IMG/VR virus record: IMGVR_UViG_3300001213_000075
Coordinates: 1-42,983 of that record
DNA: 42,983 nucleotides
Direction: 5' to 3' (one strand)
Source: a virus
How positions within the stretch are numbered: the first letter of the stretch is position 1; each line of letters opens with the position of its first letter. The position numbers and the translations under genes are program-made. Below, one piece after another: positions 5,493 through 20,129 of this stretch. The notes beneath the pieces were generated by a model. The model was given only the letters and a program-made list of their open reading frames with translations, had not been told where the DNA came from and ran no database searches.

Positions 5493-6446
5493 TTAATATC
5501 TTAATGGTATCGAAGATTTAGTGATTTTAATATCATTATAACCTTTAGCATCTAAAAAATAACGTATACTATCTTTTGTTATTCGCATTTTTCTTTTTGG
5601 CCCAATCATAATTTCTTCAATATATTTTATTGGAAAAGATAGCTTAATATATGGGATAATTAAGTCATGTGAAACTCTAAATTCTATTTCATTTATATTC
5701 TTTGTCAACATTGGAGTAATTAACCTAAACTCATGTTCATCCTCATACTTTTTATCCTTAGATAAAAGAGCAAATGTAAGTAGATAGAACATTGCAAATT
5801 GCTTTACTTGTTCAAAATCGGCATCTGAAATTAATCCAGCGTCATGCCTTTTATAATAATCTATTAATATTTCTACAAACTTTTTAAATAATTCTTCTTT
5901 CAACCTATCATCATATAATACATTCCTCCCCATAACCATATTTCTTACATGTTTATTATTAATGGTCAAATTTTTTTGGGTAAATAACATATCTTTAAAC
6001 ACAAGACAATATCCATCATTATTAGTATAATTCGACCACAATGTTAAAGAATCTGGTTTATTGCTAAGAGAAATAACAAAAATAAATTTTAATAATTCAT
6101 TACTAACCTCATTGTAATAATTAAAAAACCAATGTGCAAAATCTTTTTCATCTCTATAAAATTCATTTAATACTCTATGTAAAATAGGTTTTAAATGCAA
6201 CACTTCTTTTTTATCATTTAAAAACATACAATTTGTTGCCCATAAACTTTTTTCCACCAAAATCGATTGAAGTGAATTTAGGTTCGTATAATGATAAATT
6301 TTCTCAGGCAATTTTGTGACATTAAGAATAGATCTATCAATTATGTTTATTTTTTCTAAAAATTCGTCAAACAAGCTCTCTGATTCAATCGTTTCCATTT
6401 GCAACCTTTCAAAAAAAATATTTGATATAATATTCCATGAAGTCAA
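5493..6446 (-). CDS. DUF2971-family protein, probable accessory (defence-type) gene
   Basis: A 317-residue protein. The features of DUF2971 are visible in order: 'KIYHYTNLNSLQSILVEKSL' then WATNCMFLNDKKE near residues 48-80, 'SLSNKPDSLTLWSNYTNNDG' then YCLVF near 125-150, and 'DEHEFRLITP' near 235. The biochemical activity of the family is not established. Members often occur on mobile elements. The gene is visibly richer in A and T than the phage structural genes and lies just outside the late-operon terminator, so it was probably acquired separately. TTG 6446 has AGAGGG six bases ahead. ATG 6398, behind GAAAGG, is an equally good start and keeps every motif. Confidence 0.8.
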   Translation of the reverse strand: MTSWNIISNIFFERLQMETIESESLFDEFLEKINIIDRSILNVTKLPEKIYHYTNLNSLQSILVEKSLWATNCMFLNDKKEVLHLKPILHRVLNEFYRDEKDFAHWFFNYYNEVSNELLKFIFVISLSNKPDSLTLWSNYTNNDGYCLVFKDMLFTQKNLTINNKHVRNMVMGRNVLYDDRLKEELFKKFVEILIDYYKRHDAGLISDADFEQVKQFAMFYLLTFALLSKDKKYEDEHEFRLITPMLTKNINEIEFRVSHDLIIPYIKLSFPIKYIEEIMIGPKRKMRITKDSIRYFLDAKGYNDIKITKSSIPLRY

Positions 6447-6518: not shown

Positions 6519-6944
6519 TTAAAAAATAGCCGCGATTGTTGCAATAGCAGCCGCAATAATCGCTATATTTCTTTCCCATACCAACTTACTTACCTCTTTT
6601 TTTAATTCCGTCAATGATTCCTTGCTGCTCTGTAATAAGTTTTGCAGACTCATTAGCTGCATCTTGGCTTCGTCCGATGATGCTTTTAATTCCGTCAAGT
6701 CCTGTGTTAACTTGTCCAATTCCGTTTGATATGTTTTTAGTTTGGTCTGAGATTCCGCCAAGTTGTTTTGAGATGTCACCAAGTCGACTGATAGTTGCTG
6801 ATTGAGATTTGATAATCTGCTCGTAATCTCGGATAGTCTGGCTAATTCTTGATCCGTCACCTGATAATTTCCATCCGCAAAGCACACCGCCGGTAATACC
6901 AATAATAAGGCAAATAGAGCCAATGATAAGATATTTTTGCACAC
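6519..6944 (-). CDS. Spanin-like secreted coiled-coil protein with C-terminal membrane anchor
   Basis: A 141-residue protein. N-terminal signal peptide of about 23 residues ending PAVCFA, then a long leucine-rich coiled coil (about residues 30-120, e.g. LAESQTKLKTYQTELDKLT), then a C-terminal hydrophobic segment IAIIAAAIATIAAIF. This topology suggests a spanin that bridges the envelope. The cysteine at 21 has Val at -1, a poor lipobox, so signal peptidase I cleavage after CFA is likelier than lipid attachment. GTG start at 6944 directly after the holin's TAA. The whole gene 6586-6942 lies inside it in another frame. Envelope spanning is inference from topology and position. Confidence 0.6.
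   Translation of the reverse strand: MCKNILSLALFALLLVLPAVCFADGNYQVTDQELARLSEITSRLSNLNQQLSVDLVTSQNNLAESQTKLKTYQTELDKLTQDLTELKASSDEAKMQLMSLQNLLQSSKESLTELKKEVSKLVWERNIAIIAAAIATIAAIF
6586..6942 (-). CDS. Inner-membrane spanin-like protein, fully nested in another frame
   Basis: A 118-residue protein. One N-terminal transmembrane segment (YLIIGSICLIIGITGGVLCG, residues about 4-23), then a periplasm-predicted coiled coil with repeated 'GI.....I' units (e.g. IKSQSATISRLGDISKQLGG) and a basic end KKRGK. This is the architecture of an i-spanin (Rz type). Its GTG start (6942-6940) shares a base with the GTG of the 141-residue gene, as GTGTG, so one ribosome site serves both. Both readings remain open and protein-like for 118 codons. 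It may pair with the 141-residue product in the last step of lysis. Confidence 0.6.
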   Translation of the reverse strand: MQKYLIIGSICLIIGITGGVLCGWKLSGDGSRISQTIRDYEQIIKSQSATISRLGDISKQLGGISDQTKNISNGIGQVNTGLDGIKSIIGRSQDAANESAKLITEQQGIIDGIKKRGK

Positions 6945-7172
6945 TTAAGCCCCTCCTTCAGGTTTGCCTGGGCCGCCTTTATTTTCTTGAACCACCCGGT
7001 AAATATTAATCAAAAACATTCCGGCGCCACCGATCGTCAATGCGATAATGATCGGCCCGGCATTAGAACGAAACATAAATATATTTCCGATGGTTACGGC
7101 GCTAACAAGTAAACCTATCCAGATTAATCCGATGATTAAAATTTTAGTATGGGTACGAGTTTTCCACATCAT
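6945..7172 (-). CDS. Holin, two transmembrane segments
   Basis: A 75-residue protein with two hydrophobic helices (LIIGLIWIGLLVSAVTIGNI and PIIIALTIGGAGMFLINIY) separated by a short polar turn, a basic N terminus and a Gly/Pro/Lys-rich tail. Size, topology and position between the amidase and the spanin-like genes fit a class II holin that opens the inner membrane to release the amidase. It overlaps the amidase end by 4 bases and its stop abuts the spanin starts, so the lysis genes are translationally coupled. Confidence 0.75.
   Translation of the reverse strand: MMWKTRTHTKILIIGLIWIGLLVSAVTIGNIFMFRSNAGPIIIALTIGGAGMFLINIYRVVQENKGGPGKPEGGA
6952..6958 (-). promoter_or_regulatory. Ribosome binding site shared by two overlapping start codons
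   Basis: AAGGAGG on the minus strand ends at 6952. GTG 6944 is 7 bases away and GTG 6942 is 9 bases away, both workable spacings. The holin's TAA (6947-6945) lies between the site and the starts, so re-initiation may also feed both frames. Confidence 0.65.
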
Positions 7173-7711
7173 GATAATTTTTCCCCTTGTCTTATAAATT
7201 GACTCTTGACATCAGCATAAAAAGCATTCGGATCAAATAAATCATTTTTCGGATTCGTTTTTCCATTGCTGAAATCAATCCAACAGAATGGATCGAATGG
7301 CCGGTTCAAGGGGTCATATCTGCTATGCGGTTGCAGATAGTCAGGAGTTGGTTTAAATTTATAGCGCAGAATGATATCTACTATCAAATCCAAAACATTC
7401 TGATAAATTTCCTTTGTAATAGGTTCACAGGTTTCAATTCCAATTGCGTCTCGATTTGCTCCGACGCAATGATAGGCTTGTTCGTTTTCTGGGATGCACC
7501 GAATGATATTCGTAGCGTCCACAAGATAATGGGCGGATGCGAAAGTTTTACCGGCTAACGGCGGATGATTCAAACTTTCAAAATAGTCCCGGTTATTTTT
7601 TGCCGAAGCTCCCGAATTGCCCGTCCTATGGATAATAATTTTTTGCGGGCGCAATAAAAAAGCCGGCCTATTTTTGCCGACTGAAATAAGATCTTCTTTA
7701 ATTGGTATCAT
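7169..7711 (-). CDS. Endolysin: N-acetylmuramoyl-L-alanine amidase (Amidase_2)
   Basis: A 180-residue peptidoglycan amidase that cuts the bond between muramic acid and L-alanine. Visible motifs: 'KIIIHRTGN' (first zinc His), 'FASAHYLVDATNIIRCIPEN', 'AYHCVGANRDAIGIETCEP', and 'LQPHSRYDPLNRPFDPFCW' with the second His and the Cys ligand. No signal peptide or cell-wall-binding domain is present, so release depends on the holin. ATG 7711 (AGCGAGGA upstream) was chosen. The frame is open to a TTG at 7756 that lies inside a GGAGG sequence and lacks its own site. Confidence 0.85.
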   Translation of the reverse strand: MIPIKEDLISVGKNRPAFLLRPQKIIIHRTGNSGASAKNNRDYFESLNHPPLAGKTFASAHYLVDATNIIRCIPENEQAYHCVGANRDAIGIETCEPITKEIYQNVLDLIVDIILRYKFKPTPDYLQPHSRYDPLNRPFDPFCWIDFSNGKTNPKNDLFDPNAFYADVKSQFIRQGEKLS

Positions 7712-7739
7712 TTTATAATTGTCCTCGCTTTCTTTGTTC

Positions 7740-8036
7740 TTATCTCTTTCCTCCAAACCACGCCCCAGCGGCAGCGGCCAATACTATTCCTCCAATAGTT
7801 CCGCCAACTTTGCTAATCCAAATCCATACCGTTTTTTGACCAGCGGAGGTGTCGTTTTCTGATTCAATACTGTCGATACGTTTATTTATTTCTGGAATAG
7901 TTTTATCTTCAAGTTTTGTAACCCTGCTATTAGTTTTCTGCACTTGTATTAATACTTGCTCTAATATTCCATTGGTTTTACCTGATTCTTCAATTAATTT
8001 AATCGCCCAACTCGGTACCTCTTCCATTTCCATCAC
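7740..8036 (-). CDS. XhlA-like lysis protein (coiled coil plus C-terminal membrane segment)
   Basis: A 98-residue protein. Heptad-like helix at residues 25-60 (VQKTNSRVTKLEDKTIPEIN), then one C-terminal hydrophobic segment 'ISKVGGTIGGIVLAAAAGAW' and basic GGKR. This matches the layout of hemolysin XhlA-type phage proteins, which assist holins. It precedes the amidase with a slight frame overlap. Start GTG 8036, with ATG at 8033 and 8027 as alternatives. GGTGAT suits the last of these. Confidence 0.65.
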   Translation of the reverse strand: MMEMEEVPSWAIKLIEESGKTNGILEQVLIQVQKTNSRVTKLEDKTIPEINKRIDSIESENDTSAGQKTVWIWISKVGGTIGGIVLAAAAGAWFGGKR

Positions 8037-8221: not shown

Positions 8222-8671
8222 TTAAGGATTCATTTTAGGAATATTATCTCTTTCCATATAAGCCTTTTCTTGTGGTTGCCCCTGGTCGATTCTTTCTAAA
8301 ACAAGCCTCATCTTTTTTATATTGCTTTCAGTCGAGTATGATCCATTCATGGCCCAGGCTGTTTCTCCATCCATTTGAACAGTTTTGGTATAATCAGTTT
8401 TTTCTAAAGTTTCATTATCATAGTTGTAATATTCTTCCCTAACCCTTAATGTACACTGAATATTACTATAGACCGGAAACGACCAAGAATATTTAATAGT
8501 TTGTGTCGGATTCATTTGTTCATCATATTGCCGTTGCTGTCTCCATTCTCCAGTTAAGAAGAAATATTGTTCCTTCACATTATCGTTGTGCTTGATTCCC
8601 CTTCCACCGATACAGCCAGAAAACAACAATGTAACAATAATTAATAAAAACATTAAATTAATTTTTTTCAT
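8222..8671 (-). CDS. Phage-encoded lipoprotein (moron)
   Basis: A 149-residue protein with a lipoprotein signal (MKKINLMFLLIIVTLLFSGC; lipobox LFSG-C) followed by a flexible GGRG stretch. The mature part looks beta-rich, with tryptophan and tyrosine strands (QTIKYSWSFPVYSNIQCTLR). Gly follows the Cys rather than Asp. It is embedded in the late operon but has its own promoter, a structured leader and its own terminator, the hallmark of a moron expressed in the lysogen. A surface or superinfection-exclusion role is inference. ATG with AAGGTGAAG upstream. Confidence 0.75.
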   Translation of the reverse strand: MKKINLMFLLIIVTLLFSGCIGGRGIKHNDNVKEQYFFLTGEWRQQRQYDEQMNPTQTIKYSWSFPVYSNIQCTLRVREEYYNYDNETLEKTDYTKTVQMDGETAWAMNGSYSTESNIKKMRLVLERIDQGQPQEKAYMERDNIPKMNP

Positions 8672-18491: not shown

Positions 18492-20117
18492 TTATGGGTT
18501 ATATTTCATTAAGTTACCGTTTTCGTCTCGGTAAACCCAGGCACTAAGTTTTTTCGACCATTGAGCATCCGGGGGAATATTAAACCTGTGATCTGTTTTA
18601 TTGCCTCCTAATGGCCCTAATTTCCATTTACCAGTTATGGTCTTAGTTAAAGCATCCTGTAGTATTTTGTCCTTTTCTTCCGATGTTGGGGGACGTTTAT
18701 TCTTAAATTGAAAATCGCCTGCAACCCCTGAAACATAGTCCCAAAACTTAGCCTGCTGGTCACTGTCTTTAATACCACTCTTTTTCAATAATGCCGCCCC
18801 ATCTGTGGCTAAATTAAATTTGTTGTAGGGTGAAGTACCGACCGTCCCCATAGAATCCATGGCCTTCCAAAATGTTTTCATATCGTCGAAACTGATCCGG
18901 CTTCCATATTCCTTAAGCATCTCTTGTCTATTGGCAATTTTTCCGGCTTTGATTTTATCGTATAGTTCATACCAGGCTGCCGGATCCGTTTTTATCCCCT
19001 GGCCCGCTTTGGTGAGTTCCGGATAAAGCTGCTTGGCAATTGTGAGCAAACTTGTTTTTACCTGTAATTGGTCAGCGGTCTTTTGCGGCAGGGTATTAAT
19101 GTATTTTACTGCCGTCAACCCGTTCCCGGCTCCTTCAACATTCTTATAATAATAATCAATTTGGGTATTAATAGTAGCCCGTTTTTCTTGTTCACGCAAA
19201 TTATAGGTCGAATGATAGGTATCCAGTAATTCTTTTTGCTTTTCCGGCGTTAAACTAAGATTTTTGATATACTTATCACCCGAGGCTAGGTTTTCGCCAT
19301 ATTTTTTGAGTAAATCATCTGATATTGTTGTTTGTTTGGCACCCCAGTCACCGGCATCAATTTTAGTTTTAATGGTATCGGCGACATCACCCGGCAGATA
19401 ATCTTTGACTTTATCAAATAACCCCTGGGCTCCCTTATAATCTTCCTTTTGGAACAATGATTCAAAGGCCTTTAAAGCCGCTGCGCCGGAAGACGCCTGT
19501 TGATTAAATTTAATACTATCCGGTGTATCTCCGTTATAATCCCCCGTTACCTTGACAATGGCGTTGATGTTTGCAATGGAATCTACCAACGAATACGGGT
19601 TACTTGCAGCATCTTTGATTTTCTGATTGATATTATCCTGCGTGGTTTGTTCCCGGCTGGCCTGCCCTTGCTGCGCCTCATGCCTGACTACCATATTCAT
19701 ATTGGAATCGTACATGCTTTTATAAAGCTGATCAAACTGGGTTTGTTGCTCTTCCCCCGGTACCATCCGGGAATATTTTTGCCGGATCTGTTCAATCTGA
19801 TCTTTAAAATCTTGGGTTACGCCGTTGGCGTTTGCTAAAGTCCGGTTCATAATTCCCACTGGACGGCCATTTTCATCAGTGTCCTGACTATATAAAACGC
19901 CATCAATTTCTTGCCGCATTTGAGTTTCGGCTTCAAGAACTTTCTGAGTATCTTTCTGTTGTTGGAGCTCCTTTGCTCGTTGTTGAAGAAGCTGACCAAT
20001 ATTTGAAGTCGTTTGCCCTAATTGCTGGTTTGCTTGGGCGATATTTACACCAAAGGCATCCGGATTCGGATTAATTGGTTGGATTTGTGCTTGACGTTCA
20101 TAAACAGGTACTTGCAT
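18492..20117 (-). CDS. Internal virion protein, T7 gp15-like position
   Basis: A 541-residue protein, mainly helical and Gln-rich. The N-terminal part (IAQANQQLGQTTSNIGQLLQ, then QRAKELQQQKD) and segments such as 'VRHEAQQGQASREQTTQDNI' are typical of core proteins of short-tailed phages that form the ejection conduit. No enzyme motif is seen. It lies between gp14-like and gp16-like genes, which is the basis for the call. ATG 20117 preferred, with AGGGGTGAT upstream. GTG 20126 lies inside that site. Confidence 0.75.
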   Translation of the reverse strand: MQVPVYERQAQIQPINPNPDAFGVNIAQANQQLGQTTSNIGQLLQQRAKELQQQKDTQKVLEAETQMRQEIDGVLYSQDTDENGRPVGIMNRTLANANGVTQDFKDQIEQIRQKYSRMVPGEEQQTQFDQLYKSMYDSNMNMVVRHEAQQGQASREQTTQDNINQKIKDAASNPYSLVDSIANINAIVKVTGDYNGDTPDSIKFNQQASSGAAALKAFESLFQKEDYKGAQGLFDKVKDYLPGDVADTIKTKIDAGDWGAKQTTISDDLLKKYGENLASGDKYIKNLSLTPEKQKELLDTYHSTYNLREQEKRATINTQIDYYYKNVEGAGNGLTAVKYINTLPQKTADQLQVKTSLLTIAKQLYPELTKAGQGIKTDPAAWYELYDKIKAGKIANRQEMLKEYGSRISFDDMKTFWKAMDSMGTVGTSPYNKFNLATDGAALLKKSGIKDSDQQAKFWDYVSGVAGDFQFKNKRPPTSEEKDKILQDALTKTITGKWKLGPLGGNKTDHRFNIPPDAQWSKKLSAWVYRDENGNLMKYNP

Positions 20118-20129
20118 AAAGATCACCCC

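Follow-up and report, generated by a model that had tools for sequence, protein, structure and literature searches.

A fully overprinted gene pair in the lysis cassettes of phages of two-membraned Firmicutes is a likely lipid-free analogue of two-component spanins

In the published survey of phage spanins an outer membrane lipoprotein is required, and the genes of the pairs are embedded, overlapped or separated; o-spanins integrated in overlapped pairs are reported in the +1 frame, and Firmicutes are absent from the text of that survey (PMC6139136). In phage lambda, the Rz/Rz1 pair stands after the endolysin in the lysis cassette and combines an inner membrane coiled-coil subunit with an N-terminal helix and a second subunit encoded in the +1 frame (PMC6139136, PMC5295617). 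Rz1 is a short, proline-rich, Lol-sorted lipoprotein nested inside Rz. The unimolecular spanin gp11 of phage T1 is exported, carries an N-terminal lipid anchor and a C-terminal hydrophobic segment, and acts alone. Veillonella and Megasphaera are known diderms (PMC5007114). Negativicutes are reported to lack LolA and LolB, and diderm Terrabacteria to lack Lol or outer membrane lipoproteins (PMC5007114, PMC11784454, PMC10665443, PMC5491611), the mass spectrometry of the last study being called not conclusive there. No route is known by which a lipoprotein o-spanin could reach the outer membrane in such hosts, and no description of spanins in Negativicutes, Veillonella or diderms was found in the literature or family libraries searched. 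The gene pair described here is a candidate answer to how phages of two-membraned Firmicutes, with neither Lol nor known outer membrane lipoproteins, break the outer membrane. We consider it likely that the pair, fully overprinted, serves without a lipid anchor as the analogue of a two-component spanin in the lysis cassette of a temperate phage whose host is a diderm Firmicute without detectable LolA and LolB.

The window, by which we mean the whole 42,983-nucleotide stretch of viral DNA analysed (IMG/VR record IMGVR_UViG_3300001213_000075), is a prophage with an integrase, replication genes, a major head protein, a head-tail adaptor and tail proteins. On its minus strand, GTGTGC at 6944-6939 provides two GTG start codons two bases apart (6944-6942 and 6942-6940), downstream of a single Shine-Dalgarno sequence, AAGGAGG (6952-6958), that both share. 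The first start opens F1 (6519-6944, stop ending at 6519), 141 residues with a signal peptide, a coiled coil of about 90 residues and a weak C-terminal hydrophobic tail, a candidate lipid-free outer spanin subunit. The second opens F2 (6586-6942, stop ending at 6586), 118 residues with an N-terminal membrane helix and a coiled coil, a candidate inner (i-)spanin subunit. The first-pass annotation had described the twin starts and both protein architectures in these terms, and the sequence bears it out. It had also stated that nearly the whole length is shared; F1, however, ends 67 nt past the end of F2, so its C-terminal tail, VWERNIAIIAAAIATIAAIF (6522-6581, encoded downstream of the F2 stop), is the sole part not double-coded. 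The signal peptide of F1, MCKNILSLALFALLLVLPAVCFA|DG (6873-6944), has no consensus lipobox. A cysteine near its end (AVCFA) makes a poor one, and the predicted cleavage site (CFA|DG) reads as a signal peptidase I site. The coiled coil of F2 ends in a conserved C-terminal motif, SAKLITEQQGIIDGIKKRGK (6589-6648), whose form in the family is LI-x-E-C/G-Q-x-I-L-x-x-[IV]-R-x-R-G. In AlphaFold2 (AF2) models built from 63-sequence alignments, F1 forms a single 110-residue helix (31-140, mean pLDDT 91.9) and F2 consists of helices 2-23 (membrane) and 33-117 (85 residues; mean pLDDT 71.8), single long helices that hold little fold information.

The genes upstream of the pair, on the same strand, form a lysis cassette. 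A 75-residue two-helix membrane protein (6945-7172), whose TAA stop codon abuts the GTG of F1, is a holin candidate, and no family match to it was found in the Pfam and PHROG scans. It is preceded by an endolysin (7169-7756), an N-acetylmuramoyl-L-alanine amidase of the Amidase_2 family (Pfam PF01510, E 4.7e-17; PHROG endolysins, down to 1.8e-21), and this in turn by a 98-residue coiled coil with a C-terminal membrane segment (7740-8036), a possible XhlA- or holin-like lysis accessory with weak matches to phrog_1193 'hemolysin' (E 0.003) and DUF2951 (E 0.006). When the upstream ORFs of 74 loci were compared with Pfam, peptidoglycan hydrolases of seven families were found just upstream of the pair in about 60: Amidase_3 in 19, Amidase_2 in 18, GH25 in 15, a VgrG3-like C-terminal domain in 4, glucosaminidase in 2 and two M15 families in 1 each, the total being the sum of the family counts, in which a protein that matches two families is counted twice. 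The family of the upstream lysin is swapped while the pair remains, so that the pair is a constant part of the cassette. A separate lipoprotein o-spanin nearby was also considered and rejected, as ORFs with a lipobox on the same strand (8 of 111) were in no notable excess over the control strand (3 of 111). Three other genes of the window, all on the minus strand, may be mentioned. Upstream of the cassette, 8222-8671 encodes a 149-residue predicted lipoprotein (LLFSGC), possibly a moron, with a weak match to a superinfection-exclusion PHROG (E 0.1). Just after the pair, in AT-rich DNA, lies a gene for a DUF2971 protein (5493-6446, E 8.6e-8), a possible accessory gene. A 544-residue protein encoded among the tail genes (18492-20126), with a weak endolysin match (phrog_1044, E 1e-6), is possibly a tail-associated lysin.

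The nearby predicted lipoprotein, and the fact that secreted coiled-coil proteins of prophages can be morons, would fit a pair that excludes superinfecting phages or alters the host surface and stands beside the endolysin by chance. We regard such an envelope moron as quite improbable, because the pair stays directly behind the lysin although the lysin family changes.

Scans that used single window proteins as queries detected no relatives in viral contigs, genome contigs, phages or plasmids. Relatives were reached through a profile built from paralogues in the window's own genome and in its family, followed by searches with Negativicutes sequences as queries. The window's own assembly contains a second, worn copy (L002), and a third (L003) occurs in another genus of its family; each has the two frames in the same phase. 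The profile from these copies led to pairs in Megasphaera-type and other Negativicutes prophages, the named carriers being Megasphaera massiliensis NP3, Megasphaera sp. NM10, Veillonella parvula SKV38 and V. atypica KON ATCC 17744. F1 matches at E <= 1e-4 were present in 154 of 380 Negativicutes genomes, some of them coiled-coil noise, and about 110 loci were read. The resulting set of 112 distinct loci, mostly Negativicutes prophages, was chosen on F1 criteria only. L004/L010, L054/L055 and proteins of about 390 residues were left out as coiled-coil false positives, and matches to SMC, EzrA, tropomyosin and similar proteins in Pfam, NCBIfam and PDB were below cutoffs and dismissed as noise of the same kind. 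The genome of the window lies outside the Negativicutes and shares with Megasphaera the phylum alone. In a 398-genome sample of this phylum, full-length F2 matches occurred solely in the window's genome and in Negativicutes genomes, the rest being short or coiled-coil proteins of about 390 residues. The first-pass annotation underestimated the scope: instead of a single odd locus, the pair belongs to a whole family of phages whose hosts are two-membraned Firmicutes, with Veillonella, Megasphaera and many more among them.

In all 112 loci F1 is in the +1 frame of F2, which keeps its phase throughout and is open across 73% or more of the F1 match, with a median of 86%; for the third frame the median is 22% and the maximum 58%. 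F2 usually ends 50-90 nt ahead of F1 in the relatives. Negativicutes profiles from which the window, L003 and L041 had been left out matched window F1 with an E-value of 1.9e-30 and window F2 with 4.3e-21, against best values of 0.02 (F1) and 0.1 (F2) for shuffled decoys. In the reverse search the strong matches to the F2 profile coincided with F1 loci, and where an F2 match was absent from the F1 list an F1 was present there too, in sizes from 91/107 to 190/206 residues. The two proteins lengthen or shorten together over this range in L190, L191, L194 and L195, which suggests in-phase gain and loss of repeats in the double-coding region. The best-supported starts of F1 and F2 are at most 10 nt apart in 72 of 108 loci, as picked by a simple Shine-Dalgarno rule that is wrong for some relatives. 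The commonest arrangements are ATGWATG, with F1 starting 4 nt after F2, and RTGTG, with F1 starting 2 nt before F2, each with one purine-rich site upstream, and a minority of loci apparently have a separate F2 start 25-60 nt upstream.

If only F1 or only F2 were a real gene, the other frame would be open because of codon bias. When the F1 protein was kept and its codons were resampled by window usage, the F2 frame was open in 0 of 20,000 trials, and in 0.3% of trials when the synonymous codons of window F1 itself were shuffled; with F2 kept and the F1 frame scored, the values were 0 and 1.7%. Across the relatives, shuffling of F1 synonymous codons left F2 open in a median of 2.6% of trials per locus and in up to 78% at one locus, so composition alone is sometimes enough. 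Selection was assessed in 26 independent pairs with 70-98% DNA identity. The proportion of differences was 0.655 for changes silent in both frames, 0.236 for those silent in F1 alone (SN), 0.146 for those silent in F2 alone (NS) and 0.121 for those silent in neither (NN). Double-silent changes thus occurred about 3-5 times as often as those silent in a single frame, and both proteins are therefore under purifying selection. Omega was 0.51 (0.43-0.60) for F1 and 0.83 (0.67-0.97) for F2, the latter modestly below 1 by the NN/NS contrast; relative to double-silent sites, a small class of 50 sites, the values were 0.22 and 0.36. The synonymous change of F1 was 0.21 within the overlap and 0.34 in the F1-only tail (p 1e-5). 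The repeated interruption of one frame that the first-pass annotation had named as refuting its claim of overprinting was not seen in the 112 F1-selected relatives. Its claim is strongly supported: both genes are real, with a conserved phase and purifying selection on each. The reading of a single real gene, which the shuffling results could favor, is contradicted by the conservation of phase, membrane helix and C-terminal motif at every locus, by the matches of the lineage-excluded profiles and by the suppression of single-frame-silent changes, so that its probability is next to nothing and F2 as a by-product of F1 codon bias was ruled out.

The absence of a good lipobox from the outer partner, pointed out in the window by the same annotation together with a C-terminal anchor, holds family-wide: a strict lipobox was found in 3 of 112 F1 proteins and a relaxed one in 11. 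The F1 tail follows the pattern R/K-x-Q-R-N/D, then about 15 hydrophobic residues and usually a lysine (K/R end in 105 of 112); the basic cluster ahead of it amounts to 421 K/R against 96 D/E, and the tail is less hydrophobic than the F2 helix in 109 of 112. Basic residues precede the membrane helix of F2 in 87 of 112 loci. The mature N-terminus of F1 carries the conserved motif Y-x-[IV]-T-x-x-E-L-x-x-L (L37, T30, E33). Cysteines, the residues of the intermolecular disulfides of two-component spanins, occur in the coils of F2 in 60 of 112 loci and of F1 in 26, with 15 loci having both. Omp85 was detected in all seven genomes tested, the window's own included; LolA and LolB were not found by Pfam model in these seven, although control models did match. 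The missing lipobox and the C-terminal tail across the family are explained by this host biology, namely no LolA/LolB detected in these genomes and no Lol or outer membrane lipoproteins reported for diderm Terrabacteria.

Position, architecture and host distribution together point to a spanin role for F1 and F2. F2 would be an inner membrane i-spanin with its N-terminus inside, a membrane helix and a periplasmic coil. F1 would leave the cytoplasm through Sec, lose its signal peptide to signal peptidase I and act as a lipid-free outer subunit, attached by its weak, basic-flanked C-terminal helix to the outer membrane on the periplasmic side. After the endolysin has cleared the wall, F1 and F2 would zip into a helical bundle; if they pair antiparallel, which is a guess, the N-terminal anchor of F2 and the C-terminal tail of F1 would come to lie at the same end. 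The bundle would pull the inner and outer membranes towards each other and disrupt or fuse the latter. Replacement of the lipid anchor by a C-terminal tail would adapt the phages to hosts in which lipoproteins are not sorted to the outer membrane. In this way the pair probably disrupts that membrane and does without the lipoprotein on which all known two-part phage spanins depend.

The main doubt is which membrane takes the F1 tail. A C-terminal helix after an export signal normally yields an inner membrane protein, and both subunits might be anchored there, with F1 fixed by its tail as a stop-transfer anchor and touching, through its conserved mature N-terminus, an outer membrane protein such as OmpM or Omp85. 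Conservation of L37, T30 and E33 in that N-terminus would fit such a contact, as would the tethering of the outer membrane through OmpM in these diderm bacteria (PMC5491611). We find this arrangement rather unlikely, because the tail is weakly hydrophobic and has a strong positive charge ahead of it, contrary to the positive-inside rule for a type I anchor; a weak tail that is positive on the periplasmic side argues against ordinary inner membrane stop-transfer, and leaves insertion into the outer membrane unproven.

The place of the pair within the lysis cassette is also compatible with a holin/antiholin or another inner membrane module of lysis timing, since lysis accessories include small coiled-coil membrane proteins, XhlA among them, and there were weak matches to XhlA and holins. 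XhlA (PF10779) likewise combines a coiled coil with a membrane segment at its C-terminus and belongs to the lysis region; unlike F1 it has no export signal, and the match scored 18.9 against a curated cutoff of 34.7 bits. Separate holin candidates are present in the window (the 75-residue protein) and in L039, where a holin_4-like gene, read by eye, lies upstream of the endolysin, and the restriction of full-length matches to Negativicutes and the window's genome in the phylum sample points to the outer membrane. A timing module is accordingly improbable.

Compared with the described systems, the pair reads as a two-component spanin in its i-spanin-type F2, its place in the lysis cassette, its diderm hosts and its overlapped architecture, with F1 in +1 as in the overlapped pairs of the survey. 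The lipobox of the o-spanin is what the F1 family does not have; thus the pair seems to work like two-component spanins yet to fail one defining feature, the outer membrane lipoprotein. Whereas Rz1 is short, proline-rich and nested inside Rz, F1 is as long as F2 or longer, is started from the same ribosome site, is almost free of proline (0.33 per 100 residues) and has a signal-peptidase-I-type signal and a C-terminal tail. F1 resembles T1 gp11 in being exported with a C-terminal hydrophobic segment, but it is always paired with F2, and it falls outside the unimolecular spanins, defined by N-terminal lipoylation plus a C-terminal membrane domain. No homology was detected by tblastn in 50,697 phage records. 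Matches to PHROG 'Rz-like spanin' were weak (best 2e-4) and of the kind that coiled coils give, none to named spanins being above cutoff. Phrog_18860, annotated as of unknown function and with the second frame unnoted, covers the full length of the Veillonella F2 (E 7e-58); one lobe of F2 has thus already been clustered, without a function. Window F2 did not match it at E<1. We give slightly less than an even chance to the tentative proposal that this is a class of outer membrane disruption in its own right, not derived from the lipoprotein spanins: to break an outer membrane that receives no lipoproteins, phages of diderm Bacillota would use two co-started, fully overprinted helical proteins, of which one would push a short, weak helix into that membrane from the periplasmic side.

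If the spanin reading is true, the job of a spanin is possible without lipidation. The overprinting itself is unusually deep and broad, with two same-length proteins from one ribosome site at more than 100 divergent loci, and the pair should be useful for the study of mutual constraint between two reading frames. A gene finder limited to a single frame per locus is likely to overlook one of the partners. A copy is present in Veillonella parvula SKV38, a strain described as genetically tractable, and the pair is thereby open to testing.

Some further copies were read. Several diverged copies, four of which were read in each case, are present in each of two genomes, G491 (L080, L102-L104) and G718 (L097, L106, L110, L157), and represent several prophages or remnants. 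In the worn second copy of the window's assembly (L002/L038, G000:C385) both N-termini are apparently shifted by one base and have no start, and L037 (2291-2452, G000:C257) is a C-terminal F1 fragment, IRQRNIATIWAIIPTIAYIKEPP; these two are decayed prophage remnants. At about 2050-2300 of L003 (G005) the pair directly adjoins a CRISPR-like array with the repeat GTTTCAATCCACACTCCTGTGCAAGGAGTGAC.
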